This document shows, in pieces, positions 2,247-23,215 of a stretch of 64,000 nt of DNA. The notes below the pieces were generated by a model. The model searched no databases, was not told the origin of the DNA, and saw only the letters and a program-made list of their open reading frames with translations. The stretch lies in NCBI RefSeq assembly GCF_019056515.1, contig NZ_CP064873.1, positions 496,001 to 560,000 on the forward strand, given 5' to 3'. Numbering within the stretch: position 1 is the first letter of the stretch; the number at the start of each line of letters is the position of its first letter. The DNA comes from Microbacterium paraoxydans (GTDB lineage: Bacteria > Actinomycetota > Actinomycetes > Actinomycetales > Microbacteriaceae). The position numbers and the translations under genes are program-made.

Positions 2247-3380
2247 GTGGCAACGCGCATGGCAGCGACACCGCCGACGCTGGCGGGGTACAGCTACGTG
2301 CGTCCGCTCGGGTCCGGCGGTTTCGCCGACGTGTTCCTCTACGAACAGGACATGCCGCGCCGCGTCGTCGCCGTCAAGGTCCTGCTCGCGGATGCCGTGA
2401 ACCCCGAGGTGCTGCAGACCTTCAACGTGGAAGCCGACATCTCGGCGCGGCTGAGCGCCCACCCCTCGATCGTCACCATCTACCAGGCGTCCATCTCGGC
2501 GGACGGGCGGCCGTACTTCGCGATGGAGTACTGCCCCGACACGATGAGCGCGCGCTACAAGAAGGCCCCCCTCCCGCTCGCGGAGGTGCTCGACATCGGC
2601 GTGCGCATGGCCGGCGCTCTGGAGACCGTGCACCGGGCCGGTCTGCTGCACCGCGACATCAAGCCGTCGAACGTGCTCATCAACTCGCTCGGCGCGCCCG
2701 TGCTGGCCGACTTCGGCATCGCCGCCGCCGTCATCGAGGAGGGCGAGGGCGAGACCATCGCGATGTCCGTGCCCTGGAGCTCCCCCGAGGTGCTGCAGGA
2801 GCGCGTGTCCGGATCCATCCCCAGCGAGGTCTGGAGCCTCGGCGCGACGCTCTACACGCTGCTCGCCGGCCGCAGTCCGTTCGAACGCGCCGACCGCGGT
2901 TCGAACTCGCGCGATCAGCTCACGGACCGGATCATCAAGGCGCGCTACACCGCGGTGCCCGTCCCCGGCATCCCGCCGATCATCGACGACATCTTCGCGA
3001 GCGCCATGCACCGTGACCCCGCGAAGCGGCCGGCGAGCATGGCGGAGTTCGCGGAGAAGCTGCGCTGGGCGCAGTATGAGCTCGGCATCTCGCCGACGGC
3101 CTTCGAGGCGGCGTCGTCGGAGTGGGCGGCGGCCGCGCCGGTGAGCTTCTCGGACACCTCCGTCCGCGGACCGGTCATCACGACGGTCGCACCGGACTCC
3201 CGTCGGGCCGCCCGCGCCGCTCAGGCCCAGGCCGCCCCGCGTGACCGCGACGACATCCCCGCGGGCCCCCGCGGCCGCAACCGTTCGCCGCTGGTCGTCG
3301 GCATCGTCGGAGCGGTGATCGGGGCCGCCGTGATCGCGGGCCTCGGGACCGCCGCACTGTTCCTCACCGGGGTCCTCTGA
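2247..3380 (+). CDS. Membrane-anchored Ser/Thr protein kinase (PknB-like)
   Basis: A 377-residue eukaryotic-type kinase. Visible elements are the glycine loop LGSGGFADVF, the ATP lysine (Lys44 in VAVKVLL), the catalytic loop HRDIKPSN (His135, Asp137) and DFG (Asp155). After the kinase domain and a linker, one hydrophobic segment near residues 350-375 ends the protein, so almost nothing is left outside the membrane and no PASTA sensor is present. The GTG start has AGGAGCAGGA before it; an ATG at 2259 is a second option. The stop TGA shares one base with the ATG of the giant Ig protein, which suggests the two work together, perhaps as a split receptor. Likely targets are the neighbouring FHA and Thr-motif proteins. 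Confidence 0.93.
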   Translation: MATRMAATPPTLAGYSYVRPLGSGGFADVFLYEQDMPRRVVAVKVLLADAVNPEVLQTFNVEADISARLSAHPSIVTIYQASISADGRPYFAMEYCPDTMSARYKKAPLPLAEVLDIGVRMAGALETVHRAGLLHRDIKPSNVLINSLGAPVLADFGIAAAVIEEGEGETIAMSVPWSSPEVLQERVSGSIPSEVWSLGATLYTLLAGRSPFERADRGSNSRDQLTDRIIKARYTAVPVPGIPPIIDDIFASAMHRDPAKRPASMAEFAEKLRWAQYELGISPTAFEAASSEWAAAAPVSFSDTSVRGPVITTVAPDSRRAARAAQAQAAPRDRDDIPAGPRGRNRSPLVVGIVGAVIGAAVIAGLGTAALFLTGVL

Positions 3381-6300
3381 TGGCAGCGGGGAACCGTGCC
3401 AGGGCGGAGGCCGCGCGCCCGTCTCGGGGGCGGCTGATCGCGCTGGTCTCCGGGATCCTCGCGCTCGTGGTCGTCGTGGCGCTCGCGGTGACGGCCCAGG
3501 GATATCAGTCCCAGGAGGTGCCGCGACTCGAGCCCTCGGTCTGGGTCATGCGCGACAGCGGGCAGTACGCCCGCGTCAACACCGAACTCGCCGAGATCGA
3601 CACGGTCCGCGACGTCGACGACCCCGAGGCGGTCTGGCAGAGCGGCTCCAGCACCGTGCTGTTCGCGCAGGGGAACCGGCAGCGGTGGGACGTCGATCCG
3701 GCCAGCCCCGCCGATCTGCTCTCCGACAGCTCGGAGGAGGGGACGCCGCTCGCTTCGCAGCCCACGCCCGCCGGGACCAGGGATGTCCTTTCCGCCGGGC
3801 CCTATGTGGCCTACCGCACCGACACCGGGCAGGTGTCGGTGTCGACCCTCGCGGCCGGAGCGGGCACGGCCCTCGTCGACCCCTTCGCCGAGGTCGAGGT
3901 CGAGGAGGGAGAGGACCCGCCCACTTACACCGCGGATGCGATCGGGCTGTCGCCGGATGGCCTGCTCGTCCTCTACTCGGCGGACGAGGGGGCCGTGCGC
4001 CGCTTCGACATCGACGAGCACCGGTTCCTCGGGGACGAGTCCCCCGTGGCCGATGCGCCGGAGGCGGGCGAGGGGCTGGCGATCGCGGTCGTCGGTGAGC
4101 GCTGGGCGATGCTGCAGCCGAACTCGGGCACGCTGTGGCTCTCCGGGCGCGATGCGGCGGTCACCCTCGACGTCACCGAGGACGCACGCCTGCAGCGCGG
4201 TGCCGCCGAGGGCGACGCGGTGCTCGTCGCCGACTCGGACGGCCTCGTCTCCGTGGACCTCGCGTCGGGGGAGGCCGACCGGGTGGCCGAGGCCTCCGGC
4301 GTCCCGGCCGCACCGGTCACGGTCCGCGGGGAGACGTACGCGGCGTGGCTCGACAGCGGCGGTGGAACCCTCTGGAGCGCGGGGGAGACCACCCCGCTGC
4401 AGGTTCCGGACGAGACGCTCGACGCGGCCGCCATCGACCCGGTCTTCCAGGGCAACGGCGATCGCGCGGTGCTGGTCGAGAAGGGCACCGGCCTCATCTG
4501 GACCGCGCCGGAGGGCGTGCTGATCCCGCTCGAGCAGTGGAAGATCGAAGACGACACGGAGCAGCAGGAGGGCACGATCGTCGTCGAGGACGTGGCGGAG
4601 CAGCTCCCGCCGGTCGCCGTCGACGACGCGTTCGGCGTGCGGGCCGGGGAGCAGGTCATCCTCCCCGTGCTCTTCAACGATCACGATCCGAACAAGAAGG
4701 ACGTCCTCACGATCGACCCGGACTCGGTCGCCTCCGGGCTGAGCGACCCTGACTTCGGGGATCTGTCGCTCGTGGCGAACGGTCAGTCCCTGGTCGTGAA
4801 CGTGAAGGCAGGCTCCGGGCAGACGAGCTTCACCTATGCCGTGACGGACGGCGCCGCCGTGTCGCCCCCGGCGACCGTGACGCTGACGGTGGTCGATCCC
4901 GGGGTCAACTCCGCCCCGGTGTGGTGCGGTGTCGACGCCTGCACTCAGGAATGGCCGACACCGCAGATCCTCGCCGGCGGGAGCACGATCGTCTCGGCGC
5001 TCTCCGGATGGGTCGACCCCGAGGGCGATGCGTTCGTCCTGAGCGACGCGTACGAGACGGACTCCTCCTCCCCGGTGATGGTGGCCCCGATGGCCGACGG
5101 CCGGGTCGCGATCCGGCACACCGACCCCAATGCCGCGGACGCCGTGATCTCGGTCACGGTCGTCGTACAGGACGTGCACGGGGCGACGGCGGAGAAGACC
5201 ATCGAGGTCCAGGTCAGCGGCAGTCCGGCGTTGCAGGCGTCGGCCGTCGCGGTGACCGCGCGCGTGGGCGAGCGGCAATCCCTGCGCATCTCCGATCACC
5301 TGTCCGGAGGGTCGGGCTCGTACCGCCTCGTGGACGCCGTCCAGACCGCCGCGACGGCACAGGGCTTCGAGGTCACCCCGAACGCGGCCTCCGGCACCGT
5401 CGATCTGACCGCCGCCGAGCCGGGCCAGTACGTGGTCACCTACACCGCGCAGGACGTCACGACCCAGGCCGAGCAGTCCGCGGTCATCCGGATCACCGCT
5501 GTCGACGGCTCCGCGGCGCTCGCGATGGCGCCGCTGACGGCGTTCGTCCGCGAGGGCGAGGACACGACCGTCGATGTCCTCGGCGCGGTGCAGAACACCA
5601 GCGGACGGGTGCTGCTGCTGTCCGACGCCGTGAGCTCGACGCCGCAGCTCAACGTGCGCGTGGTCGGCAACGAGAGCCTGCGGGTCAACGGCACGACCGA
5701 GGACGGCGAGCCCGGCCTGATCGGCAAGGCCACCGTCACGGTGGCGGACGGCGCGGGCGGGGCCGTGCAGGGCACCGTCAGCGTGTTCCTCACTCCGCCG
5801 TCCACGGTCACCCGGCCGATCGTCTTCCCGGATGCGGTGACGGTGCGAGCCGGTTCGCTCACGCGCATCGAAGTGGCGGCCAACGATGTGGCACCGCGCG
5901 GGGAACCGCTCCTCGTGCTCCCGGAGGTGACCGGATCCGGCGAGCCGGACGAGCTCGTGTTCGCCGACCGCAACGCGCTGCGCTATCTGGCGCCGAAGAC
6001 TCCCGGCACGTACCGCCTGACGTACTCCGTCTCCCTCGAACGGAATCCGTCGCTGTCGGATGACGGCGTCGTGACGGTCACGGTCGTGCCGCCGGGCACG
6101 AACCGGGCCCCCACGCCGACGCCGCTCACCGGCCGCGTCCTGAGCGGCCAGACGGTCTCCATCCCGGTGCCGACGACCGGGATGGACGGCGACGGCGACC
6201 GCGTGGTGCTATCCGGCGTCGAGCAGCCGAAGAAGGGCGGCGGCACGGCCACCATCTCGGCGAACGGTGAGGCGATCGTGTACCGCGCGCCGGCCGGAGG

Positions 6301-9298
6301 CGTCGCCGGCGGCCAGGTCTCGTTCCGCTACAGCGTCCGTGATCCGCAGGGCGAGGAGGGGAGCGCGGCCGTGCGCATCGGCGTCCTCGATGCGGACGTG
6401 GACGACGCCGCCCCTGTGACCTTCAGCGACTACGTCCGCGTCGAGGCGGGATCCCGCACGCCGGTCGTGCTGGACCCGCGCTCGAACGATCTCGACCCGG
6501 CGCAGAGCGAGCTCGAGATCACCGAGCTCGTGCCGAACGCGCCGCCCGTCAAGGGGAACCCGCTGTACGACCGGCTCAACGCGCTGATCGATTCCGACAC
6601 CTCGCTGAAGGACGGCCGGGTCGTGCTGCGTGCCGGCGAGACCGCCGGCACCAACTCGTACTTCTACACGGTGAAGTCGTCGCGCACGGGGAGCACGGCG
6701 CAGGGCCTCATCGTCGTGACCGTCACCGACGGCACGGTCGCCGATCAGCCGGTCATCGCGGACACCGTGCTCACCGCGCGCGACCGCGACGATCTCGCCG
6801 ATCGCGGCATCGATGTCGTGACCGACCGGGTTCGCTGGCCCTCCGGCGACGTCGGCTCGCTGCGGCTGCGCCTGTGGGGAGAGCAGCCGGGCTATTCGGT
6901 GCAGGGGAACCGCATCGTGGGCACCGCGCCGAAGGAAGGCGCCCTGGTGCCCTTCCAGCTCACCGGAACGGCAGCGAACGGACGCGACGTCGTCGCCTAC
7001 GGCTTCCTGCGCATCCCGGCGTTCGACGACATGCAGGTGCAGCTCGTCCCCGGCGCGACGCCGGTCGTCGTCGACGAGGACGCGGCGGTCTCCTTCCCCG
7101 TGCAGGACTACGCCGACCTCCCGTCGTCCGATGCGATCGAGATCGGCACCGGGTCGTTCACCGCCCAGCGGGCTGCCGCAGAATGCACCGCCGACGGCCC
7201 GCGCGAAGCGGAGTACCGGGCCGGCCGCGAGGCGCCGTGGTCGGACACCTGCCTGATCCCGGTGCGCCTGGAGGGGCAGAAGCGGTGGTCGTACCTCGAC
7301 GTGCCCATCAGCGTCCGCCCGTCCGAGCCGCAGCTGCTGCTCTCCTCCATCTCGCACACGATCGCCCCCGGAGCGACGGAGAGCGTCGACCTCTACGCCA
7401 ACATGGCCGCGTGGGAAGGGGGCCGGGAGGGCAACGCCTCCTCCCTCGAGTACCGCATCGTCTACTCCGGTTCGGCGTTCCTCGTCACGCAGAGCGGCGG
7501 GAAGCTGACGATCGAGGCGCGCGCCGATGCGCGACCGGGCAACACCGAGAACGTCAGCGTCACCGTGCCGCAGTACGGACAGCCGTCGGCGTCCGTCCGC
7601 CTCGTCGTCGGCGCGGCCCCGCCGGACGCCCCGCGGGGAGCGACCTTCACCAAGCAGTGCGTCGTCACGAGCGCCAACTGCTCGATCGACGTGGTCGACG
7701 TCGCCGGTGAGTACGATCCCTTCGCCGGGAAGCCGGGATCCGGGCTGCGCCTGATGTCGCTCGGGGCCGGCGCGCGCTGCGACGTGGCCTCGGTCTCGAC
7801 GGCGGGCGCCAAGACCATCACGGCGAGCTGGCCCGGCGGCGGGCAGGCGCCCGGCGGACAGTGCGTGATCCCGTTCGTCGTGTCGGATGCGCAGGGCCGC
7901 ACCGGCACCGGCACGCTCACCCTCGACCTCCAGGGGTTCCCGCAGGCCCCCGCGAGCGTCACGACGGTCGGCTTCACCCGCACGACCGTCGCGCTGGAGG
8001 TGCCGCTCGGCGAGGCGGGACGCGCGCATCCCGCGGTCTCCGGTGTGACGATCCTCCAGGACGGCGCCCCGGCGAATGCGTCCTGCAGCCCGGCCGGCGC
8101 CGTCTACCGCTGCACGGTCAACGGGCTGACGAACGGCACCCCGCACACGTTCACCGCCGCTGCCGTCAACGCCGTCGGCACCTCGGCCCCGACGTCGCCG
8201 CACACGAGCTGGGCCTACGCCGCTCCTGTCGTCTCGAACGCGACGGCCACGCCGGAGTACCGACCGGGGGTCTCCGACCGGGGACGCGGGGCGGTCCGGG
8301 TGTCGATCGACGCCGCCGACGACGCCGTCTCGTTCCGGATCGAGGAGACGGGCGAGGTCATCAACCGCACGGGGGCGACCACCACGGCCGAGATCGCGCT
8401 GTCGCCGGGGGCGCAGACGCTGACGATCGTCCCGATCAGCCAGTTCCAGCCGCCGACCGGCGGTGGGAACGAGGGCGGCGGGTTCCGCACCTCGGTGACG
8501 GTCGCCGGCTCGGTGTACTTCGACCCGGCGGCGACCCAGGCGACGGTCGTCTCGAACACGGCGGTGAACGTCTCCGGCATCGCCGCGCAGGCCAACGGCA
8601 GCGCCAAGGGCGTCCAGGTCGTGTACGTGGCGTGGCGGTCGGGCAACGTCAGCTGCACCGCACGCGGCGACGGCACGCTCGCGGTGTCCGGCGGCGAGGT
8701 GCAGTCCGAGTCTCCGTCCCTCCAGGGGCTGCGGCCGTACCAGGTGTACTCCGTCAAGGCCTGCGCCTCGAACGGCTACGGGGTGGCGGAGTCGTCCACC
8801 GCGACGGTCTTCACGTTCACGTTCGTCGACGGTCCCGGCGGCGACACGACCTACACGGTCGCGAAGGACCCCCGGCGCGACGGGAACCGCTACGAGTACG
8901 GGCTGGCCTCGGCCCCGCGCATCGAGGTGGAGAACGGCTTCGTGCCGAAGTACTACATGTACGGATCGTGGCGCGATGACTTCGCGCTCACACCGGACTC
9001 GTCACCGGGCCAGGTGCTCGCCCGCGCCTGCCATGCCAGCCAGAGCAACTCCTGCTCCGGCGAGGTCACCATCACCGCGACGACCGCACCGACCGTGGTC
9101 AACGCCGTGTTCCAACCCTGCATGCCCGTCGTCGAGGGCGACGTCGTGACGGTGTCCGCCGCCGCACGCGGCTCGTACATCCTCGAGGCGACGCCCCTGG
9201 TCGACACTCCCGGCACCTTCGACGTGACCATCACGTGGACCGGAGCCTTCGCCACCCTGACCCCCATCACGCATCGCATCACGGGCCTGTGCCCCTGA
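3380..9298 (+). CDS. Giant membrane-anchored Ig-like/FN3 protein, 1972 residues
   Basis: An N-terminal cytoplasmic stub of about 20 residues is followed by one membrane segment (about residues 22-45), and the rest should lie outside. Residues of roughly 60-390 resemble a repetitive beta-rich (propeller-like) region. From about 415 onward there are tandem Ig/cadherin-like domains; examples are the starts VDDAFGVRAGEQVILPVLFN and FPDAVTVRAGSLTRIEVAAN, and ends such as ATVTLTVVDPGVN. A fibronectin-III-like domain lies near residues 1525-1620. The size suggests a surface receptor or scaffold. It is translationally coupled to the upstream kinase. No LPXTG or catalytic motif was seen. Long antisense open frames under it are high-GC artefacts. 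Confidence 0.85.
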   Translation: MAAGNRARAEAARPSRGRLIALVSGILALVVVVALAVTAQGYQSQEVPRLEPSVWVMRDSGQYARVNTELAEIDTVRDVDDPEAVWQSGSSTVLFAQGNRQRWDVDPASPADLLSDSSEEGTPLASQPTPAGTRDVLSAGPYVAYRTDTGQVSVSTLAAGAGTALVDPFAEVEVEEGEDPPTYTADAIGLSPDGLLVLYSADEGAVRRFDIDEHRFLGDESPVADAPEAGEGLAIAVVGERWAMLQPNSGTLWLSGRDAAVTLDVTEDARLQRGAAEGDAVLVADSDGLVSVDLASGEADRVAEASGVPAAPVTVRGETYAAWLDSGGGTLWSAGETTPLQVPDETLDAAAIDPVFQGNGDRAVLVEKGTGLIWTAPEGVLIPLEQWKIEDDTEQQEGTIVVEDVAEQLPPVAVDDAFGVRAGEQVILPVLFNDHDPNKKDVLTIDPDSVASGLSDPDFGDLSLVANGQSLVVNVKAGSGQTSFTYAVTDGAAVSPPATVTLTVVDPGVNSAPVWCGVDACTQEWPTPQILAGGSTIVSALSGWVDPEGDAFVLSDAYETDSSSPVMVAPMADGRVAIRHTDPNAADAVISVTVVVQDVHGATAEKTIEVQVSGSPALQASAVAVTARVGERQSLRISDHLSGGSGSYRLVDAVQTAATAQGFEVTPNAASGTVDLTAAEPGQYVVTYTAQDVTTQAEQSAVIRITAVDGSAALAMAPLTAFVREGEDTTVDVLGAVQNTSGRVLLLSDAVSSTPQLNVRVVGNESLRVNGTTEDGEPGLIGKATVTVADGAGGAVQGTVSVFLTPPSTVTRPIVFPDAVTVRAGSLTRIEVAANDVAPRGEPLLVLPEVTGSGEPDELVFADRNALRYLAPKTPGTYRLTYSVSLERNPSLSDDGVVTVTVVPPGTNRAPTPTPLTGRVLSGQTVSIPVPTTGMDGDGDRVVLSGVEQPKKGGGTATISANGEAIVYRAPAGGVAGGQVSFRYSVRDPQGEEGSAAVRIGVLDADVDDAAPVTFSDYVRVEAGSRTPVVLDPRSNDLDPAQSELEITELVPNAPPVKGNPLYDRLNALIDSDTSLKDGRVVLRAGETAGTNSYFYTVKSSRTGSTAQGLIVVTVTDGTVADQPVIADTVLTARDRDDLADRGIDVVTDRVRWPSGDVGSLRLRLWGEQPGYSVQGNRIVGTAPKEGALVPFQLTGTAANGRDVVAYGFLRIPAFDDMQVQLVPGATPVVVDEDAAVSFPVQDYADLPSSDAIEIGTGSFTAQRAAAECTADGPREAEYRAGREAPWSDTCLIPVRLEGQKRWSYLDVPISVRPSEPQLLLSSISHTIAPGATESVDLYANMAAWEGGREGNASSLEYRIVYSGSAFLVTQSGGKLTIEARADARPGNTENVSVTVPQYGQPSASVRLVVGAAPPDAPRGATFTKQCVVTSANCSIDVVDVAGEYDPFAGKPGSGLRLMSLGAGARCDVASVSTAGAKTITASWPGGGQAPGGQCVIPFVVSDAQGRTGTGTLTLDLQGFPQAPASVTTVGFTRTTVALEVPLGEAGRAHPAVSGVTILQDGAPANASCSPAGAVYRCTVNGLTNGTPHTFTAAAVNAVGTSAPTSPHTSWAYAAPVVSNATATPEYRPGVSDRGRGAVRVSIDAADDAVSFRIEETGEVINRTGATTTAEIALSPGAQTLTIVPISQFQPPTGGGNEGGGFRTSVTVAGSVYFDPAATQATVVSNTAVNVSGIAAQANGSAKGVQVVYVAWRSGNVSCTARGDGTLAVSGGEVQSESPSLQGLRPYQVYSVKACASNGYGVAESSTATVFTFTFVDGPGGDTTYTVAKDPRRDGNRYEYGLASAPRIEVENGFVPKYYMYGSWRDDFALTPDSSPGQVLARACHASQSNSCSGEVTITATTAPTVVNAVFQPCMPVVEGDVVTVSAAARGSYILEATPLVDTPGTFDVTITWTGAFATLTPITHRITGLCP

Positions 9299-9332
9299 CC
9301 GCCGAGCACACCGACACGAATACTCTTTCCCT

Positions 9333-10322
9333 ATGCCAGCCACCGCAGCAGCCCCCGTCACCATCGCTCCCGAGCAGGCCTCCTGGTTCGCCGAGACGTT
9401 CTCGATCCTGAGCGGCAACATCGAGCAGGCGATCCTCGGCAAGCGCCACGTGGTCGAACTCGTGCTCGCCACCGCCGTCAGCGGCGGCCACGTCCTCCTG
9501 GAGGACTATCCGGGAACCGGCAAGACGGCGCTCGCCCGCGCCGTCGCCCAGACGGTCAACGGGACCAGCAGCCGCATCCAGTTCACGCCCGACCTCCTTC
9601 CGGGCGATGTGACCGGCATCACGGTCTATGACCAGAAGGAGGGCACGTTCGAGTTCCACGCGGGGCCCGTCTTCGCGAACATCGTGCTCGCCGACGAGAT
9701 CAACCGGGCGAGCCCGAAGACCCAGTCCGCGCTGCTCGAGGTCATGGAGGAGGGCACGGTCACGGTCGACGGCGTCACCCGGTCCGTCGGCTCCCCGTTC
9801 CTCGTGATGGCGACGCAGAACCCCATCGAGCAGGGCGGCACCTACCGGCTGCCGGAGGCCCAGCTCGACCGCTTCATGATCAAGACCTCGATCGGCTACC
9901 CCGACGAGGCGGCGACGATGCGCATCCTGCAGGGCGCCGGTCGGCCGAAGACGGTGCTCGACGGCATCGTCGACACCGACACGATCCTGACGATGGCGGA
10001 GATGTCGCGCGGGGTCTACGTGAACCCGCTGGTGTCGGACTACATCATGCGCATCGTCGACGCCACGCGGCGCGCGTCCGAGGTCCGTCTCGGGGCCAGT
10101 GTGCGCGGGGCCCTGGCGCTGTCGCGCCTGGTGATGACGTGGGCGGCCAAGAACGGGCGCACGTTCGTGACGCCCGACGACGTGCGCGAACTCGCCGTCG
10201 TCGCCCTCGCGCACCGTCTCGTGCTCGAACCGGAAGCCGAGTTCGACGGGGTGACGGCCGTGGCCGTGGTCGGACAGATCCTCCTCGACGTCGAGCCTCC
10301 GCGCGAGAACGGCACTGCGTGA
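9333..10322 (+). CDS. MoxR-family AAA+ ATPase
   Basis: A 329-residue AAA+ chaperone-like ATPase of the MoxR group, which typically helps mature or insert a VWA or membrane complex encoded next door. Walker A is DYPGTGKTAL, Walker B is VLADEINRASPKTQSALLE, and the sensor region contains FLVMATQNPIEQGGTY. The length is typical. The next gene's GTG overlaps its TGA, so it is coupled to the DUF58 protein as in many moxR-DUF58-transglutaminase operons. No VWA protein is present here, which is common for this actinobacterial arrangement. Confidence 0.93.
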   Translation: MPATAAAPVTIAPEQASWFAETFSILSGNIEQAILGKRHVVELVLATAVSGGHVLLEDYPGTGKTALARAVAQTVNGTSSRIQFTPDLLPGDVTGITVYDQKEGTFEFHAGPVFANIVLADEINRASPKTQSALLEVMEEGTVTVDGVTRSVGSPFLVMATQNPIEQGGTYRLPEAQLDRFMIKTSIGYPDEAATMRILQGAGRPKTVLDGIVDTDTILTMAEMSRGVYVNPLVSDYIMRIVDATRRASEVRLGASVRGALALSRLVMTWAAKNGRTFVTPDDVRELAVVALAHRLVLEPEAEFDGVTAVAVVGQILLDVEPPRENGTA

Positions 10323-11689
10323 CCTTCAGCACCGAATCCCGCCTGACGCGGACGACCGCCGGCACGAGCACGTCGACGCGGACGTCCACCGTCACGCGTT
10401 ACGACCGCACGCGCCGCGGTCCCGTGCGCGGCGCGGTCTTCGGCGCGCGTCGGGTGGTCCGCTCCGTGGGGCGCGCGACGAGGGCCACGGTCGGCTGGGT
10501 CCGTGAGACGGTCACCACGGCGGGGATGCTCGTCGCCGTGGCCGTGGTGCTCGGCGTGCTCGCCGGGCTGCTGTTCGGCTGGGTGGAGGCCTGGGCGGTC
10601 GCCACGATCGCGCTCGTGCTGCTGGTGGCCTGCGTGCCGTTCATCCTCGGCGCCCATGACTACCGGATCGATCTCGTGCTCGACCGCGACCGCGTCGTCG
10701 CCGGTGCCGAGATCGGTGCGACGCTCGACGTCCGCAACAACGGCGAGCGCCTCTCGCTCCCCGGCGTCGTGGACGTGCCGGTGGGGGAGGGCCTCGTCGA
10801 GGCGCACGTGCCGCTGCTCCGACCGGGCGCGCACCACCGCGAGGAGCTGACGATCGCCGCGCACCGCCGCGGCGTCATCGATGTCGGCCCCATGACGATC
10901 ACCCGCGGCGACCCGATCGGGATCCTCCGCCGAGAACTGCGCTGGCCGGATGTGCAGCGCATCCATGTGCACCCGGTGACCGTGCGGCTCCCCAGCACCA
11001 GCGCGGGCCTGATCCGCGACCTCGAGGGCACGCCGAGCACCACCCTGGTGGACGCCGACCTCTCCTTCCACGCCGTGCGGGAGTACGTCGTCGGCGACTC
11101 GCCGCGCCACATCCACTGGAAGTCGACGGCGAAGACGGGCACCCTCATGGTGCGGCAGTACGAGGAGTCCCGGCACGCGCGCATCGCCGTCATCCTCGAC
11201 CTCGACCCCGAGTCCTACGCGAGCGACGACGAGTTCGAGAACACGGTCAGCGCCGCCGCGTCCCTGGCGCTGCAGGGCGTGCGGGACGGCAGGGACGTGC
11301 TCTTCTCGGTGAGCAACGAGATCCCGGAACACGGTCGCGCGGAGGTGCTGTCGATCCGCACTCTGCCCACGGTCACCCCCAAGGCGCTCCTCGACGCGAC
11401 CTCCACGATCGATCAGGCGGCACGGGTGATGCGGCTCGAGGCCGTCGCGGCCCTCACGGCGCAGTCGTACCCCGACCTCTCGATCGGGTTCCTGCTGACC
11501 GGCTCCCTCCTGCCTCTCGAGCGTCTGCGTCACGCGGCGGTGAAGCTCCCGGCGGCCGTGGAGGCCGTGGCGGTGCGCAGTGAGCTCGGTGCGCAGCCGA
11601 CGATGCGGACGGCCAGGGAGCTCGCGGTGATGACCCTCGGGGCGCTCGGCGACCTCCCGCAGATGCTCGCCCGCGGAGCACTGCGATGA
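10319..11689 (+). CDS. DUF58 domain protein
   Basis: A 456-residue membrane protein. The N-terminal 45 or so residues are rich in Thr, Ser and Arg. Two close hydrophobic segments follow (about residues 65-110), then a cytoplasmic domain with the DUF58 signature around FHAVREYVVGDSPRHIHWKS and LMVRQYEESRHARIAVILDLD. The function is unknown; the family is nearly always encoded beside MoxR. I placed the start at the GTG at 10319, which overlaps the MoxR stop; the upstream extension overlaps moxR and is Arg-rich noise. Its 3' end overlaps the next gene in an ATGA. Confidence 0.9.
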   Translation: MTFSTESRLTRTTAGTSTSTRTSTVTRYDRTRRGPVRGAVFGARRVVRSVGRATRATVGWVRETVTTAGMLVAVAVVLGVLAGLLFGWVEAWAVATIALVLLVACVPFILGAHDYRIDLVLDRDRVVAGAEIGATLDVRNNGERLSLPGVVDVPVGEGLVEAHVPLLRPGAHHREELTIAAHRRGVIDVGPMTITRGDPIGILRRELRWPDVQRIHVHPVTVRLPSTSAGLIRDLEGTPSTTLVDADLSFHAVREYVVGDSPRHIHWKSTAKTGTLMVRQYEESRHARIAVILDLDPESYASDDEFENTVSAAASLALQGVRDGRDVLFSVSNEIPEHGRAEVLSIRTLPTVTPKALLDATSTIDQAARVMRLEAVAALTAQSYPDLSIGFLLTGSLLPLERLRHAAVKLPAAVEAVAVRSELGAQPTMRTARELAVMTLGALGDLPQMLARGALR

Positions 11690-14229
11690 ACGCGGCCGGC
11701 CCGAAGCGCGGGCGGCCGCGTCGCGGAAGCCTCCCCTCGGCCTTGACCCTCTGGTCGCTGGGATACGTGCTCGTCGGCGTGCTCCTCGCCACAGCGGCCG
11801 CCTGGCCGGTCTATGAGTCGTCCCGGGCCCTCGCCGTGGGGATCGTCGGCGGCCTCCTCGGCATGGCCGTCGCCGTCGTCGCGCGCATCCTGCGCTGGGG
11901 AACGCCGCTCGCCGCGCTTGCCGCAGCCGGTGTGTACCTGCTGGTCTCGGTGCCACTGGCCATCCCGTCCGCGCTCACCTCCGTGCCCGCATTCCTCGGC
12001 GGCGTGCGGGACGCGGTGCTCGGGGTCGTGCTGGGCTGGAAGCAGATGCTCACCCTGAACCCGCCGCTGGGCGAGTACCAGGCGGTCCTCATCCCCTTCC
12101 TCGTCGTGATGCTGTCCGGCTCGTTCGTCGCCACGCTCCTCGTCTGGAGCGGGGGCAGGCGGGCGGTGGCCGCCGTCCCCGTGGTCGTGGCGATGAGCGT
12201 CTTCGGCATCGCCTTCGGCGTGAGCGGCACGTCCTCCCCGGTCTCGGTGGCCGGAGTCGAGCTCCCCGCGCCCCGGGAATGGCTGATCGGCGTCGCCGTC
12301 TTCGTGGTGTCCCTCGTCTGGCTCGTCGGACGCACGCGGCTGCAGCGCGCCGCCGCCCTGCGCAGCGTGGCGGCGGCGAACATCTCCCGCCGTGCGACCC
12401 CCGCCTGGCTCACCGTGCGCCGGCACCTCCTCTCCGCGGGGTTGGCCGTGATCGCCCTGGCCGCGGGCTTCGCGATCGCTCCCGCGGCGGCCGGCTGGTC
12501 GGACCGCTCCGTCCTCCGCGACGAGATCGAGCCCATGGTGGTGGTGCAGGAGCAGCCGAGCCCGCTCAGCTCGTATCGATCCTGGTTCGCCGGCGGCATG
12601 CTGGACACGCCGGTCGTGCAGCTGGAAGGCGATCCCGGTGCCGTGGATCGCCTCCGTCTGGTCACCCTCGACGCCTACGACGGCGAGGACTTCCACATCG
12701 ACGCCGACGACCGCTTCAGCCGCCTGCCCCGTTCGGCCCTCCCCGGCCCCGGCCGGGTGACGATGGAGATCACGATCGGCGAGGGCTACCGGGGGATCTG
12801 GGTTCCGTCGCCGGCCGGCCTCGCCGAGGCTCCCGCCTTCTCCGGGGAGCGGGCGGACGCGCTCGCCGACGGCTTCCACGTGAACGCCGACGGCGACACC
12901 GCGATCACCGTCGCCGACGCGCCGGGCGGCGGGGAGGGGGTGGTGCCCGGGGATCGCTACGCCGTGCTCATCGATGCGCCGGGCAAGCCCGGTGACCTCA
13001 CAGCGCTCCAGGGCGGACGCTCGACCCTCGACACCGATCGGTACCCGGCGCTCGTCGAATGGGCCGAGATGCAGGAGCAGCCGCGGACCGGCGCCGGCTA
13101 CCTCGAGGTGATCGATCGCCTGCGGTCCCGCGGCTATCTCAGCCACGCGCTGCTGGAGGACGAAGCGGCCGCCGGTTGGATCGCCGCTCTGCAGCAGTCC
13201 GAGGGGTATGCCTTCGCGCCCAGCTATGCCGGGCACTCCGCCGCCCGCATCGAAGAGCTCTTCACGGCGCTGACCGAGCAGGAGCGGCGGGCGGGCGCCG
13301 ACGCGAAGCCGGAGATGCTCGTGTCGGCGGTCGGCGACGACGAGCAGTTCTCCGTGGCCGCGGCTCTCCTCGCGCAGCACTGGGGGCTGGAGTCCCGGGT
13401 GGTGATGGGCGCGCGCCTCGCCGGCGCGGACGAGGTCCCGGGGATCCCCGCCTGCGGCGACGTGTGCACCGGCGCGAACATGAGCGCGTGGGTCGAGGTT
13501 CGCACCTCAGGGGGAGAGTGGATCCCCGTCGACACCACGCCCCAGTACTCCATGCTGCCGAGCACCCTCACCGAGGGCGAGCAGCTGCCGGAGCATCCCA
13601 CGGTCCCCGAGCAGCCGCGGTCCGAGGCGTTGGACCCGCCGCAGGCGCAGAGCGACGCGAACAACGACGCGCCGCCGCTCGAGGAGCCGGCGTCGGAGGT
13701 CCTCGCCGTCCTGCTGCCGATCCTCCGGGGTGTCGGCCTCGGCCTCCTCGCCCTGCTGCTGCTCGCCCTGCCCTTCCTCGTGCTCCTCGTCGCGAAGAGC
13801 AGGCGCGCACACGCGCGCCGCACGGCCCCGGATCCCGAAGTCCGTCTGGCCGGCGCCTGGGAGGAGCTCGCCGACGTCTACGCCGATCACGACGTGCCCA
13901 TGGCCGGGCAGGGCACCCGGACGCAGCGCGCGCAGTCGAGCGGTCGCGCGGCCGCGCAACGGCTCGCCGCCCTCGTGGACCGTGCCGTGTTCGCCGAGCA
14001 CCCGCCGACTCCCGAGGACGCGACGGCCGCGTGGGCCCTCGTGGACGCGGAGCGGGCGGAGCTCGCCAAGACGGGGACACGGTGGCAGCGCCTGCGTGCC
14101 CGCATCCGGCCGACCTCGTTCGTGGCCAGGACGCGGTCGCTGCGCCTCCCCGGCTTCGGTGCACGACCCATGCTCGGTACGCTCGGATGGACCGGTTCAC
14201 TGGATGACCGGAAGAAGGGGGACTCATGA
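11686..14229 (+). CDS. TgpA-like transglutaminase-fold membrane protein, probably inactive
   Basis: An 847-residue protein with about six N-terminal membrane helices, an external domain containing a transglutaminase-like region (about 545-620), and a final helix near residues 680-705 with a cytoplasmic tail. In active members the motif before the first helix is C-E-x-F and the second is H-A-W-V-E. Here they read DEQFSVAAALLA (Asp552 in the Cys place) and MSAWVEV (Ser600 in the His place); only the Asp of VDTTP (Asp616) remains. I infer a binding or structural role rather than catalysis. It starts by ATGA overlap with the DUF58 gene and ends by ATGA overlap with the FHA gene. Confidence 0.85.
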   Translation: MNAAGPKRGRPRRGSLPSALTLWSLGYVLVGVLLATAAAWPVYESSRALAVGIVGGLLGMAVAVVARILRWGTPLAALAAAGVYLLVSVPLAIPSALTSVPAFLGGVRDAVLGVVLGWKQMLTLNPPLGEYQAVLIPFLVVMLSGSFVATLLVWSGGRRAVAAVPVVVAMSVFGIAFGVSGTSSPVSVAGVELPAPREWLIGVAVFVVSLVWLVGRTRLQRAAALRSVAAANISRRATPAWLTVRRHLLSAGLAVIALAAGFAIAPAAAGWSDRSVLRDEIEPMVVVQEQPSPLSSYRSWFAGGMLDTPVVQLEGDPGAVDRLRLVTLDAYDGEDFHIDADDRFSRLPRSALPGPGRVTMEITIGEGYRGIWVPSPAGLAEAPAFSGERADALADGFHVNADGDTAITVADAPGGGEGVVPGDRYAVLIDAPGKPGDLTALQGGRSTLDTDRYPALVEWAEMQEQPRTGAGYLEVIDRLRSRGYLSHALLEDEAAAGWIAALQQSEGYAFAPSYAGHSAARIEELFTALTEQERRAGADAKPEMLVSAVGDDEQFSVAAALLAQHWGLESRVVMGARLAGADEVPGIPACGDVCTGANMSAWVEVRTSGGEWIPVDTTPQYSMLPSTLTEGEQLPEHPTVPEQPRSEALDPPQAQSDANNDAPPLEEPASEVLAVLLPILRGVGLGLLALLLLALPFLVLLVAKSRRAHARRTAPDPEVRLAGAWEELADVYADHDVPMAGQGTRTQRAQSSGRAAAQRLAALVDRAVFAEHPPTPEDATAAWALVDAERAELAKTGTRWQRLRARIRPTSFVARTRSLRLPGFGARPMLGTLGWTGSLDDRKKGDS

Positions 14230-15746
14230 CCGCGCCCGCGGACTCCGGTCTGGCCACGATGCTCGTCATCATCGTCGGACTCGGCCTGCTCGTCGGCCTG
14301 GCCGTCTACGTCTGGTACGCCCTCGCGCTCTCGCGCCTATTCCCCCGGATCGACGGGGAGGGGTGGAAGGGCTGGGTGCCCGTCCTGAACGAGGCCGAGA
14401 TCCTCGCACGCGGGGGAGTGCCCGCCTGGTCGGTGGTGTTCTACTTCATCCCGATCGTCCAGCTCTACGGGATCTACCTCAAGGTCGTCGCGACCCACCG
14501 GATCAACCGGCGCTTCGGACGGGGCGCCGGCATGACGGTGCTCGCCATCCTGCTGCCGCCGGTCTGGGCGACCGTCCTCGCCTGGGGCCCCGCCCCCTAT
14601 CCCGAGGGCGACCGTCTCGCGGCGCTCCAGCCCGGGCCGCGCCGCAGCGCTCCGCCCGCGACGGCTCCTGCGCGTGATGCCTCGGGGTACACGATCCCCT
14701 CCCTCGCCCCGGCCGGGACCGGATCGCCGGAGACGCCGTCCCTGATCTTCCCCGACTACGCCGCGCCGCCCGCGGTGGTTCCGGCCCCCGGCGCGCCGAC
14801 CGCCGAGCCGGCGGCCCCGCGGTCGTTCGCTCCGCCTGCCGCGTCCCCGACATCCCCGCCGGCACCGTCCGTGGCATCCTCGCCGTCGGCTCCGCCGTCC
14901 CCGACCTTCGCACCCCCGGCACCGTCTGCTCCCTCTCCCGCGGCCGCGGTCCCCCCGGCACCGCCGACCCCGCCCGCGGCGCGCGTCTCGCCCCCGGCAC
15001 CCGTTCTCCCGCCCGCCGCCCCGGCGCCGCAGCCGGAGCCGCCCGTCGCAGCGCAGCCGCCGACGGGGATCATGGCCGCGATGGGCGACGCGCCTCCGCC
15101 GGCCCCGCAGCCCGCGCCGGCACCGGCCGTCCCGCCGGCCGAGCAGATCCCGGCCTCCGCGCCGACGACGGAGGCGAATCGTGTCGTGCGCCCGGTGCCG
15201 CCGTCGTTCCGCGACGCTGGTCAGGCCGAGGCCCCGCCGATGCCGACGATCCGTCCCGTCCCGTCTCCGGCCGATGCCCCCGCGGCAGCGCAGAGCGCGC
15301 CCGTACCGGCTCCGGCTGCGCCCGAGGGCCTCATCCCCGATGTCGACAAGACCGTGGTGACGCCGCGTCCCACCGACGACGACCTCGACGCCACGGTGGT
15401 CGTCGCCCGCAAGCGCGGGGTGCGGCGCGTCCTCGTGCTGGACGACGGTCGTCGGTTCTCGCTGTCCGGCGCGAGCGTCGTGATCGGCCGGAACCCCACC
15501 GGGGAGCCGGGCGAGCAGCGGCTGGCCATCCCGGACACCACCCGCACGCTGTCGAAGACCCACGCCCGCCTGGTGGTGCAGGAGGACGAGTGGCGCCTGA
15601 CCGACCTGCACGCCACCAACGGCGTCGTCGTGGTGGCCGACGACGGCTCGGAGACGCTCCTGGACGCCGGTGAGAGCGTGGTGGGCACCGGCCGGTTCAT
15701 CCTGGGCGAAGTGGGCATGCACGTCGTCGCGGAGCGCGATTCGTGA
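14226..15746 (+). CDS. Membrane protein with Pro-rich linker and C-terminal FHA domain
   Basis: A 506-residue protein. The N-terminal ~130 residues carry three or four hydrophobic segments and resemble small DUF5684-type membrane domains. A long Pro/Ala-rich linker (about 140-370) follows, and the C-terminal ~110 residues form an FHA phospho-Thr-binding domain (IGRNPTGEPG, LSKTHARLVV, HATNGVVV). Just before the FHA domain are two acidic-x-Thr-Val-Val sites, DKTVVTPR (Thr376) and DATVVVAR (Thr390), placed like the phospho-acceptor before the FHA domain of GarA/OdhI. This suggests phosphorylation by the operon kinase and self-binding. It is coupled to PP2C by a GTGA overlap. Confidence 0.88.
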   Translation: MTAPADSGLATMLVIIVGLGLLVGLAVYVWYALALSRLFPRIDGEGWKGWVPVLNEAEILARGGVPAWSVVFYFIPIVQLYGIYLKVVATHRINRRFGRGAGMTVLAILLPPVWATVLAWGPAPYPEGDRLAALQPGPRRSAPPATAPARDASGYTIPSLAPAGTGSPETPSLIFPDYAAPPAVVPAPGAPTAEPAAPRSFAPPAASPTSPPAPSVASSPSAPPSPTFAPPAPSAPSPAAAVPPAPPTPPAARVSPPAPVLPPAAPAPQPEPPVAAQPPTGIMAAMGDAPPPAPQPAPAPAVPPAEQIPASAPTTEANRVVRPVPPSFRDAGQAEAPPMPTIRPVPSPADAPAAAQSAPVPAPAAPEGLIPDVDKTVVTPRPTDDDLDATVVVARKRGVRRVLVLDDGRRFSLSGASVVIGRNPTGEPGEQRLAIPDTTRTLSKTHARLVVQEDEWRLTDLHATNGVVVVADDGSETLLDAGESVVGTGRFILGEVGMHVVAERDS

Positions 15747-16570
15747 CCGTGGAATCCGTCGTCCTCCGGGTCGCCGCGCTGACCGACACCGGGCTCACGC
15801 GGACGGCCAACGAGGACGCGGTGCTCGACGCGCGTCCGGTCTTCCTGGTCGCCGACGGCATGGGCGGGCACGACGCCGGTGATCGCGCCAGCGCGGCCGT
15901 CGTCGCCGCCTTCGAGCCGCTGCGCGGGCGGACGGTCGACGTCGGCGACATCAGTGACGCGCTGAGTCGAGCCGCGGCCGTCGTCGAGGGCATCGCCGCC
16001 GCGCACGCCCGCGGTGCGGGCAGCACCGTGACGGGTGTGGCCCTCGTGGATCACGAGGGTGCGCCGCACTGGCTCGTCTTCAACGTGGGGGACTCCCGGG
16101 TCTACCGGCACCACGGTACCGAGCTGGCGCAGCTCACGATCGACCACTCCCTCGGACAGGAGCTCGTCGATGCCGGGGAGCTCCGCCCCGAAGACCTGGC
16201 CTCATTCTCGCGCCGCAACGTCATCACGCGCGCGGTCGGGGCTCCGGACAGCACCGCGGACAGTTGGCTGCTCCCCGTCGTCGACGGCGAGCGGCTCCTC
16301 CTGTGCTCCGACGGACTCACCGGCGAGGTGAGCGATGAGGCCATCCGCGCGACGCTGACCATGAACGGCCGCCCGGAGACCGCGGCGGCGGCCCTCGTCC
16401 GCCGCGCGCTGCAGGGCGGAGGACGAGACAACATCTCGGTCCTGGTGATCGATGTCGTCTCCGGCGGCGCACGCACGCGTCCCGACGACGCCACGGGCGG
16501 ACGGGCCGCCGTGTCCGCGGTCACCGATTCGATGCTCGAGGGCACGACGGTCCCGGTGCGAGCGCGATGA
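15743..16570 (+). CDS. PP2C-type Ser/Thr protein phosphatase
   Basis: A 275-residue metal-dependent phosphatase that should reverse the action of the kinase at 2247. Family motifs appear in order: TRTANEDAVL, the metal-site stretch VADGMGGHDAGDRAS, FNVGDSRVYR, LLLCSDGLTGEV and GGRDNISVLVIDV. It has no membrane segment, unlike PstP of mycobacteria. The extreme C-terminus, LEGTTVPVRAR (Thr268/Thr269), resembles the Thr-Val peptide repeated in the two neighbouring proteins. The start is GTG at 15743 inside the FHA stop; the stop overlaps the next ATG. Confidence 0.95.
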   Translation: MTVESVVLRVAALTDTGLTRTANEDAVLDARPVFLVADGMGGHDAGDRASAAVVAAFEPLRGRTVDVGDISDALSRAAAVVEGIAAAHARGAGSTVTGVALVDHEGAPHWLVFNVGDSRVYRHHGTELAQLTIDHSLGQELVDAGELRPEDLASFSRRNVITRAVGAPDSTADSWLLPVVDGERLLLCSDGLTGEVSDEAIRATLTMNGRPETAAAALVRRALQGGGRDNISVLVIDVVSGGARTRPDDATGGRAAVSAVTDSMLEGTTVPVRAR

Positions 16571-17238
16571 GCGACGAGGAGGCCGAGGAGACCGTCATCC
16601 TGACACGGCGCGACCGCCGGCGGGCCGAAGCGGCGGACCCGGTGCCCCCGGGGGCCGATGACACGTCGTCCGCCGTCGATGAGGCCACCATCGTGGTGGA
16701 TCGCGCGAAGACGGCTCCGGCTCCCGACCGAACCGACGCTGCCGCGGAGGATGCGCCCGAAGGCGCCGTCGCCGATGAGCCGGACGATGCCGGGCCCGAG
16801 GAGGACGCGGGGGAGGCCATCGACGACGCGACCGTGGTCGTCGATCGCTCCGGGCCTCCGGCGGCCGACGCCCCCGAGGACGCCACCGTGGCGGTCGCGC
16901 GTCCGGCTCGACGCCTGCGGCGGAAGAAGGGCGCCGCCGCAGAGGGCGACGGCACCGCACCCCAGGCCGCCGAACCGCGGTTCCGCGTCGACTCCTTCGC
17001 CGCCCCAGACGGCGCGCCGGCTCCCGCGATCTACAAGCCGCGTCCGGCTCCGCGCACCCCCGCCGCTCCGCCCGTCGTCGTCGGGGCGGCCGCGCCCACG
17101 CGGGTGGTGGAGCCCGGGCTGCCGTCGGTCGCCAAGCAGGCGCAGCGATGGAGCGTCGTCACCCTTGTTGCGACCGTCGGGGCGGGCGTCGTGTCGGTCG
17201 TCGGTCTCGTCGTGCTGGGCTTCGTCGTCTTCGCCTGA
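16567..17238 (+). CDS. Tail-anchored protein with four repeated Thr-Val/Ile motifs
   Basis: A 223-residue protein of unrecognised family. It is acidic and Pro/Ala-rich, with one C-terminal membrane helix (about 195-222) and no folded domain visible before it. Four short repeats have the form acidic-x-Thr-Val/Ile-x-x-x-Arg: EETVILTR (Thr9), EATIVVDR (Thr41), DATVVVDR (Thr89) and DATVAVAR (Thr107). The same motif lies before the FHA domain of the gene two upstream. I infer a disordered membrane-tethered phospho-peptide array for the local kinase and FHA proteins. It is coupled to PP2C by ATGA. Confidence 0.75.
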   Translation: MSDEEAEETVILTRRDRRRAEAADPVPPGADDTSSAVDEATIVVDRAKTAPAPDRTDAAAEDAPEGAVADEPDDAGPEEDAGEAIDDATVVVDRSGPPAADAPEDATVAVARPARRLRRKKGAAAEGDGTAPQAAEPRFRVDSFAAPDGAPAPAIYKPRPAPRTPAAPPVVVGAAAPTRVVEPGLPSVAKQAQRWSVVTLVATVGAGVVSVVGLVVLGFVVFA

Positions 17239-17300
17239 GGAGGCCGGCGCCCTGCGGCCCTCGCTAGGGTGGGGGAAGTCCAAAGAGGGGGGACAGACGG

Positions 17301-17762
17301 ATGGATCGAGATGCGAAGCAGTCGACGGCGACGAGCAGCACGTCGCGCAGGCCGCGTGTCGCCGGCGTGTTCGCCGTCGTGCTCGGTGCTCTGTCGGCGA
17401 TCGTCGCGATTCCTGCGCTCGTCGCGGTGTCGACCGACCCGGAATTCCTCTTCGGGGGTCTCGTGGCTCTGGTCGTCGCAGCGGTGTCGTTCCTCTTCGC
17501 CGGCTTCGCCTTCCGGTTCGTCCGCGAGCCGTCGACCATGCGCACCGCGATGACCCCGTTGCTCTGGCTCGTCGCGGCGGCGCTCTTCGTCGGAGTGCTC
17601 GGCAGCATGGGGGCGTTCGTCTACGGTCAGGTCGTTCAGAACCCGCAGAGCGCGGCCGTCGGGTTGCTCCTGCTGCCGTTGGCGGGAGGCGTCATGGTCA
17701 CCGGTGCGGTGCTTGTGGGGGCGGTCGTCCGGGCGCGACAGGCGGCAGCCGCCGGCCGCTGA
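17301..17762 (+). CDS. Small four-helix membrane protein
   Basis: A 153-residue hypothetical protein with about four hydrophobic segments (near 20-45, 48-75, 85-112 and 118-145) and a short Ser/Thr/Arg-rich N-terminus. GAGGGGGGAC precedes the ATG at a workable distance. It lies 62 bases after the Thr-repeat gene on the same strand and converges with the mycosin gene 15 bases away. I do not recognise a family. Confidence 0.65.
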   Translation: MDRDAKQSTATSSTSRRPRVAGVFAVVLGALSAIVAIPALVAVSTDPEFLFGGLVALVVAAVSFLFAGFAFRFVREPSTMRTAMTPLLWLVAAALFVGVLGSMGAFVYGQVVQNPQSAAVGLLLLPLAGGVMVTGAVLVGAVVRARQAAAAGR

Positions 17763-17777
17763 TCCGGCCTCTGCCTC

Positions 17778-22867: not shown

Positions 22868-23215
22868 ATGACCATCGGAATCGACTTCGATCAGATCATG
22901 GCCGAGCTCAAGCGGCTGGCCCGTGAAGCAGCGGCTTTTCCTGCCGCGAACGAAGTCGCCGTGTCCGAGGGTGGCACGTCGAAGGCGACGGATGAGCTGC
23001 GGAACGCGGTGGCCTACGCGGCCGGTCGTCTGAGCGTGGCCACGCAGAATGCTGTGGACTCCTTGAACGAGACGCAGGAGACGATCCGTCAGGCCGTCAT
23101 GATGATCGCGGAGCAGGACGCAGCCATCGCTGATGACTCGAAGCTGATCCTGTCGCTCCTCGACTCTGCCGTCGCGCAGAGCGACTCGGACACGAGCGCG
23201 GAGGCCGACTACTGA
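22868..23215 (+). CDS. Small helical T7SS-associated protein
   Basis: A 115-residue, mostly alpha-helical, acidic protein with no signal peptide, no membrane segment and no WXG motif. It lies between the WXG100 pair and a mycosin and shares a one-base stop/start overlap with the mycosin (TGATG at 23213-23217). Size and helicity suggest an ESX substrate or partner of the WXG100/EspC kind, but I do not recognise a family. GGAGGAAAG precedes the ATG. Confidence 0.75.
   Translation: MTIGIDFDQIMAELKRLAREAAAFPAANEVAVSEGGTSKATDELRNAVAYAAGRLSVATQNAVDSLNETQETIRQAVMMIAEQDAAIADDSKLILSLLDSAVAQSDSDTSAEADY

Follow-up and report, generated by a model that had tools for sequence, protein, structure and literature searches.

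A repeated threonine peptide in a PFNA-type operon of Microbacterium paraoxydans, a candidate phosphorylation-switched ligand array for an FHA protein

In a 64,000-nucleotide stretch of the Microbacterium paraoxydans genome (NCBI RefSeq assembly GCF_019056515.1, contig NZ_CP064873.1, positions 496,001 to 560,000; hereafter the window), an operon of the PFNA type includes three adjacent genes, for a membrane protein with a DUF5684 and an FHA domain, a PP2C phosphatase and a small tail-anchored protein, whose products share a short peptide centred on a threonine. We propose that this peptide is an FHA ligand switched by phosphorylation, which the operon's own kinase would write, the FHA protein read and the phosphatase erase, while the membrane-bound array of copies in the tail-anchored protein would gather FHA proteins, and on the sequences we consider this proposal probable. 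The first-pass annotation of this DNA had suggested a dedicated array of kinase sites and FHA ligands, resembling the switch of GarA and OdhI. The dedicated array is strongly supported by sequence comparison, as the central residue is threonine and almost never serine, a threonine precedes the FHA domain in every protein aligned, the phospho-threonine pocket is intact, array and FHA protein agree at positions +2 and +3 of the motif, and in some relatives the array is joined to a PP2C or to a kinase-like domain; the resemblance to GarA and OdhI is only loose.

The peptide copies in the window

Translation of the window reveals six copies of the strict pattern [DE]xT[VI][VIA]xxR and one variant, in the three proteins and with the threonine numbering (Thr9/41/89/107, Thr376/390 and Thr268/269) that had been annotated; the original count of seven needs the qualification that the PP2C copy, EGTTVPVR, falls outside the strict form. 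The copies are as follows.

15345..15368, + strand: motif DKTVVTPR (Thr376), FHA protein residues 374-381, in the closest clade only
15387..15410, + strand: motif DATVVVAR (Thr390), the pre-FHA threonine, FHA protein residues 388-395, with Thr in 56/56 aligned
16538..16561, + strand: variant motif EGTTVPVR (Thr268/269), C-terminal tail of the PP2C, residues 266-273
16585..16608, + strand: array motif 1, EETVILTR (Thr9), tail-anchored protein, from residue 7
16681..16704, + strand: array motif 2, EATIVVDR (Thr41), tail-anchored protein, from residue 39
16825..16848, + strand: array motif 3, DATVVVDR (Thr89), tail-anchored protein, from residue 87
16879..16902, + strand: array motif 4, DATVAVAR (Thr107), tail-anchored protein, from residue 105

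A chance origin can be rejected on three counts. The DNA pattern for [DE]xT[VIM][VIM]xxR occurs seven times in the window, versus a mean of 0.68 and a maximum of 3 in 100 dinucleotide shuffles; the whole 3.59-Mb genome has 32 matches, five of them inside this 1.5 kb of the operon; and shuffling the residues of the tail-anchored protein, which has four copies, gives a mean of 0.009 and a maximum of 1, with 0/20000 shuffles reaching four. A genome-wide bias toward the peptide is likewise rejected. Twenty-five of the 27 matches elsewhere in the genome were read with about 43 residues of context each, part of them in long frames and part in short or probably non-coding frames, and none has a second copy within that stretch, while the pattern rewritten for serine (TCN), which matches just as often genome-wide (32 times), is missing from the operon.

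The array protein and its threonines

A protein search with the tail-anchored protein returned 99 matches with E values of 0.01 or less, its own included, out of 7997 scored candidates, and the names among the matches listed are hypothetical or uncharacterized protein. A set of 49 array proteins, to which L158 was not added, as it is probably the same genome as L016, was reduced to 43 by dropping six near-identical ones, and 39 of the 43 carry three to eight copies of the motif (nine in L131, one of the relatives' loci, by a wider pattern). Together they hold 192 motifs, versus a mean of 3.8 and a maximum of 16 in 2000 shuffles. With the central residue left free, the same proteins have 192 threonines, a single serine and 54 other residues (Val 17, Ala 7, Leu 7, Pro 6, Arg 6, the rest fewer), and a narrower hydrophobic pattern with a free centre gives 118 threonines, one serine and 15 others; in the linkers, outside the motifs, serine (436) and threonine (417) are found equally often. 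Arginine at +5 and an acidic residue at -2 are each found in 118/120 cases when these positions are left free. FHA domains in general favour phospho-threonine over phosphoserine, and near-exclusive threonine is what FHA reading would lead one to expect, more so than kinases that also use serine.

Among 14 orthologues of the window's tail-anchored protein, the threonine columns are 86-100% conserved, the motif columns 70% and the linkers 25%, so that the loss of threonines that would have spoken against the first-pass annotation is absent. Where repeats of one protein share identical residues, synonymous differences are found in 948 of the 2264 codon pairs, which argues that selection acts on the peptide and not on the DNA, and a DNA-level repeat artefact is rejected on this ground. 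The original description of a protein with no other visible domain needs a correction, as a conserved Y-x-P-R stretch lies about 68 residues from the C-terminus, between the array and the anchor; across the 43 array proteins, a YxPR-like match 61-82 residues ahead of the C-terminus is present in 37.

17032..17043, + strand: juxtamembrane motif YKPR, residues 156-159, in the context AIYKPR
17176..17232, + strand: C-terminal membrane anchor, residues 204-222, mean hydropathy 2.65

The array also turns up joined to other parts of the system. In one locus (L166), a single protein joins PP2C, array and membrane anchor, and in four others (L012, L013, L023, L133) the array is fused to a kinase-like domain, Pfam having been run on L166 and L013. 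In this kinase-like domain the HRD motif has become HGR and the DFG motif GFD, so that these domains are probably inactive. Three loci without an array protein (L019, L021, L022, of Pseudoclavibacter and Leucobacter) have such peptides in the PP2C tail itself, and 69 of 105 distinct PP2C tails carry a threonine motif, versus a mean of 4.8 and a maximum of 13 in shuffles, with the serine form in four. Many PP2Cs of other loci (L024-L085, from Microbacteriaceae, Cellulomonas and Arthrobacter relatives) carry a related threonine peptide, DDTRPR, EDTVPR or GATVPR, at or close to their C-terminus.

The FHA protein as likely reader

The DUF5684-FHA membrane protein is the likely reader, as judged from its sequence. 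Its FHA domain (PF00498) scores 26.8 bits versus a Pfam cut-off of 20.7.

15420..15737, + strand: FHA domain, AlphaFold2 predicted local distance difference test (pLDDT) >90 for most of it; G, R422, S443, H446, T464, N465 and G conserved

The 56 aligned FHA sequences were picked for an FHA-like pattern and not for the threonine, leaving out loci without a readable FHA open reading frame (ORF) upstream of the PP2C and identical FHA tails. All 56 have the pre-FHA threonine motif (54 by pattern, L152 and L153 by eye), in 53/54 at 31 or 32 residues from the FHA arginine, and the pocket positions, occupied by G, R, S, H, T, N and G, do not vary among the 56; the G-R, S-x-x-H and N typical of the phospho-threonine pocket are also present in 13/13 named sequences. 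The pocket was compared by eye with that of Rad53, G69/R70/S85/H88/N107 (PMC5549992; published sources are represented here and below by excerpts). For the unphosphorylated protein, AlphaFold2 models the FHA fold with confidence and the motifs as disordered, about a quarter of the model being of low confidence. A fold search against solved structures placed Rv0020c/FhaA first, with OdhI, ArnA, GarA and DgcB then among the matches, at query template modelling (TM) scores of about 0.4-0.6; a Protein Data Bank sequence search with the FHA domain gave no match.

GarA and OdhI are small soluble proteins. The window protein, with DUF5684 and hydrophobic segments, is not, and does not group with them in NCBIfam, where it matches only FhaB_Rv0019c (27.6 bits versus 125) and TagH, both under the cut-off. 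The annotated likeness to their ETTSVFR switch stands as a loose analogue, weakened by arginine at +5 and by the position of Thr390, which the model places in a disordered stretch about nine residues ahead of the first strand of the FHA domain. It does raise the alternative of a self-switch of this type, in which the phosphorylated pre-FHA threonine would fold onto its own FHA domain and shut it, leaving the array as a competing ligand or phosphate sink. OdhI and GarA are indeed among the fold matches, and the threonine motif does stand ahead of the FHA domain throughout the alignment, but a self-switch leaves the variable copy number of the array and the fusions unexplained, and in the model the disordered spacer looks short for folding back, so that we regard this alternative as improbable. 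The same spacing and predicted disorder favour binding between molecules instead.

Agreement between array and FHA protein

The pre-FHA and array motifs of 41 loci, close relatives included, were compared with genomes permuted. Agreement is 0.583 versus 0.361 permuted at +2 and 0.584 versus 0.352 at +3, the overall score being reached by 0/5000 permutations, and at +1 there is no excess among these loci (0.515 versus 0.495). When the loci are thinned to FHA identity below 90% (30 loci) or below 75% (21 loci), still 0/5000 permutations reach the +2/+3 agreement, with 7/5000 below 65% (17 loci) and 102/5000 below 55% (12 loci); -1 and +1 give no signal at any level of thinning, a test that carries some noise, as the widened pattern took the wrong peptide for L020. 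Since relatedness acts on all positions, the difference between +2/+3 and the other positions speaks for a recogniser shared by array and FHA protein.

This result bears on a second alternative, that the motif is only a substrate or docking site of kinase and phosphatase, with multisite phosphorylation altering the charge at the membrane and the FHA domain reading something else. The motif does fit a kinase site, because PknA-dependent threonine sites of Mycobacterium tuberculosis have acidic residues upstream and L/V at +3, besides K/R at +4 (PMC7164672), and its presence in PP2C tails and in fusions with kinase-like domains suits a substrate. Against this stand the near-exclusive threonine, which would be expected more from FHA reading than from kinases that also use serine, and the +2/+3 flavour, which tracks the FHA protein's own motif, and we judge the alternative to be somewhat more improbable still than the self-switch. 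That the repeats are functionless products of recent slippage or duplication, as near-perfect tandem units in some arrays (L013, L146, L152) might suggest, is hardly credible in view of the synonymous codon differences, the linkers that vary while the motifs stay, the dispersal of copies over three genes, and the 14 orthologues, in which no widespread loss of threonine is seen.

Distribution among relatives

Two sets of loci from relatives were collected. In the kinase-anchored set (31 loci, L146-L176), the five core genes follow the window order in 29/31, and 14 of these 29 have both FHA and PP2C matches after the transglutaminase gene, matches being by similarity to the window's proteins, so that distant FHA or PP2C genes may escape. 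Arrays with three or more motifs are present in 16 of the 31, two loci (L150, L167) ending at a contig edge. In the PP2C-anchored set, where an array was called from at least two motifs by the wide pattern and a C-terminal hydrophobic stretch, it directly follows the PP2C in 34/110: 11/18 of the best named loci (L006-L023), 23/30 whole-genome loci (L116-L145) and 0/62 others, many of which look like paralogues. As the arrays of both sets were chosen for threonine motifs, the count was redone without the motif condition, giving 36 ORFs with a hydrophobic tail after the PP2C, of which 31 have two or more threonine motifs, two (L019, L022) are kinases and three (L011, L130, L144) resemble the array protein but score no copy or a single one (0 or 1) by that pattern; together the 36 hold 149 threonine motifs versus one serine motif, near-duplicates counted. 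Going by genome labels, arrays are spread over at least four genera of the family to which the window belongs, including other Microbacterium, and occur in one other family.

Several observations weigh against the proposed reading. The array is found in only part of the lineages, as the two fractions above indicate, and it is absent from three putative Bifidobacterium loci (L186, L188, L190; so assigned from gene order). Four array proteins (L011, L128, L144, L147) have fewer than three copies by the pattern used. At two loci (L155, L156) the array comes after the FHA gene and no PP2C match separates them, so that the eraser is not always next door, and at four (L134, L136, L138, L140) another FHA-like protein takes the array's place. 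No single classical class dominates position +3 of the array motifs (V 88, S 45 and A 28 of 192), and the PP2C-tail pattern also matches with alanine (13) or valine (13) replacing threonine. As to the agreement test, -1 was intermediate before thinning (0.319 versus 0.212, largest permuted value 0.352), relatedness is only partly removed, and the +2/+3 agreement could mirror the specificity of the kinase instead of that of the FHA domain.

The FHA-like protein of the four loci just mentioned, all of the genus Microbacterium, has by eye a CxxC stretch resembling a zinc ribbon.

The operon and its surroundings

The genes of the operon are the following.

2247..3380, + strand: membrane Ser/Thr kinase, the operon's first gene (Pfam Pkinase E 5e-41; C-terminal hydrophobic segment 349-367)
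3380..14229, + strand: PFNA-type core, an Ig/fibronectin-type giant protein, a MoxR ATPase, a DUF58 protein and a transglutaminase-like protein
14226..15746, + strand: DUF5684-FHA membrane protein, 506 aa (Pfam DUF5684 and FHA above cut-off; hydrophobic segments)
15743..16570, + strand: PP2C phosphatase, 275 aa (Pfam PP2C_2 E 1e-8; NCBIfam Stp1 E 5e-51, under its cut-off)
16567..17238, + strand: tail-anchored array protein, 223 aa (no match in Pfam or NCBIfam)

Kinase, FN3, AAA, DUF58 and TGM follow one another in the PFNA order, each above its Pfam cut-off (in the core, fn3 at 26.6 versus 25, Big_9, AAA_3, DUF58 and Transglut_core), and the FHA, PP2C and tail-anchored genes are read as one unit, given a 4-base overlap between the FHA and PP2C genes and another between the PP2C and tail-anchored genes. 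Among named loci, that of Microbacterium sp. LCT-H2 is the nearest, with a PP2C 96% identical. PADLOC assigned 34 families to the kinase, mostly kinase-type among the 25 listed, two weak families to the MoxR ATPase, and none to the DUF58, FHA, PP2C and tail-anchored proteins.

A type VII secretion locus lies downstream in the window (EccB and EccD by Pfam, EccC by NCBIfam), and in L146 mycosin and EccB come directly after the array gene. Eight loci offer about 19 kb downstream of the PP2C (L178-L185), and here type VII genes are close by in two (L178, L179), an EccD-like match is about 18 kb off in L180, and the remaining five (L181-L185) show no match to the secretion system. With EccB/C/D linkage not constant among these loci, an obligatory component of the secretion system is rejected, and, type VII genes being present in only some loci, the array is tied to the PFNA cluster and not to secretion in itself.

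Some further features were seen along the way. After the array gene of the window, a small protein (17301-17762) has four hydrophobic segments and no Pfam match; L178 has a weak match to it (55 bits) about 1.8 kb past its array gene. The second mycosin-like ORF of the window (23215-25953; 912 aa in one frame) does not stop after its membrane segment but continues downstream into what appears to be a gene of its own, through either a fusion or an error in the frame. In L180 the first PFNA-like cluster is followed by another (about 2300-18100), with its own FHA, PP2C and kinase genes, and the FHA protein of this cluster has the threonine motif EETIVQPR before its FHA domain.

A proposed mechanism

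The membrane Ser/Thr kinase is, by its sequence, the likely writer and the PP2C the likely eraser. In the mechanism we propose, the kinase would phosphorylate the threonine of [DE]xT[VI][VIL]xxR, the FHA domain of the DUF5684-FHA protein would bind the phosphorylated form, and the PP2C would take the phosphate off. The tail-anchored protein would then be a membrane-bound disordered strip of ligands, able to recruit several FHA proteins in a graded, multivalent manner, and the FHA protein's own pre-FHA ligand would probably be bound by the FHA domain of a neighbour, head to tail, tying the FHA proteins on the array together in membrane clusters, for which the PFNA surface proteins would be the obvious candidate targets. 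The fuller version, of a signalling scaffold of a kind new to bacteria, tail-anchored and apparently disordered, which conserves mainly its FHA-ligand motifs and YxPR, co-evolves with its FHA reader and gates the PFNA surface machinery through phosphorylation-controlled head-to-tail assemblies at the membrane, is put forward more tentatively, at a little short of an even chance. The proposed mechanism, if true, would supply a wiring of writer, multi-copy ligand strip, reader and eraser for PFNA-type operons, about whose signalling logic little is known.

Comparison with known systems

The closest known system is the PFNA operon of bifidobacteria, pkb2-fn3-aaa-duf58-tgm, to which some species add prpC, a hypothetical gene and fha (PMC8430577). 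As described there, it has the core genes and order of the window and also FHA and PP2C genes, and the excerpted account makes no mention of a phospho-threonine array. Two of the putative Bifidobacterium loci (L186, L188) have WDSTVLS before the FHA domain and end their PP2C with EDATLQTLR and a few more residues; in L190, DSTMQS forms the end of the PP2C, and no FHA ORF was found in the stretch read. The gene after the PP2C in all three, considered as a counterpart of the tail-anchored protein, was rejected, its sequence and architecture differing by eye; unlike that of the window, it encodes neither an array nor a membrane protein.

In GarA, OdhI and DgcB, the FHA tail combines Glu at -2 with hydrophobic residues at +2/+3 (PMC6733907), because of which the window motif fits an FHA ligand as well. 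The window FHA protein has these features in common with them, along with a threonine ahead of an FHA domain of similar fold. It differs in being a membrane protein with a short linker to the FHA domain and arginine at +5, and for GarA and OdhI the excerpt describes one tail motif and no array partner. Rv1747, with PknF and PstP, is alike in being a membrane-bound FHA system with a disordered linker, and in vitro its kinase promotes and its phosphatase reverses condensates (reviewed in PMC9312465, as excerpted). In Rv1747 a single ABC transporter contains both the FHA domains and the linker, whereas in the window the ligand array, with its repeated consensus, and the FHA domain are separate.

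For the proposed head-to-tail binding the parallel is TIFA, where phospho-Thr9, a few residues ahead of the FHA domain, is bound by a neighbouring molecule, resulting in oligomers (PMC7083832). The likeness, as far as that account goes, lies in a threonine shortly before the FHA domain, as with Thr390, and the difference in TIFA being a eukaryotic innate-immune adaptor. We know of no separate array protein for TIFA. Variants of type VII secretion systems contain kinase, PPM phosphatase and FHA parts, and TseK has one membrane helix and a short unstructured cytoplasmic stretch (PMC11217815), so that, by this partial description, both a kinase/phosphatase/FHA set beside the secretion system and a small one-helix protein have counterparts in the window; however, type VII genes closely follow the array gene in the window, L146, L178 and L179, with no match in L181-L185.

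A tail-anchored multi-motif ligand protein was not found described in the open-licence literature searched; the bacterial FHA ligands encountered there are either single sites or sites in the linker of one protein. FHA domain, kinase, PP2C and operon core are already known, and the new part would be the tail-anchored multi-motif ligand protein. A dedicated protein of this kind, whose motif follows that of its reader from species to species, would make multivalent phospho-threonine assembly in bacteria directly testable, with the variable copy number of the array as a natural valency series.

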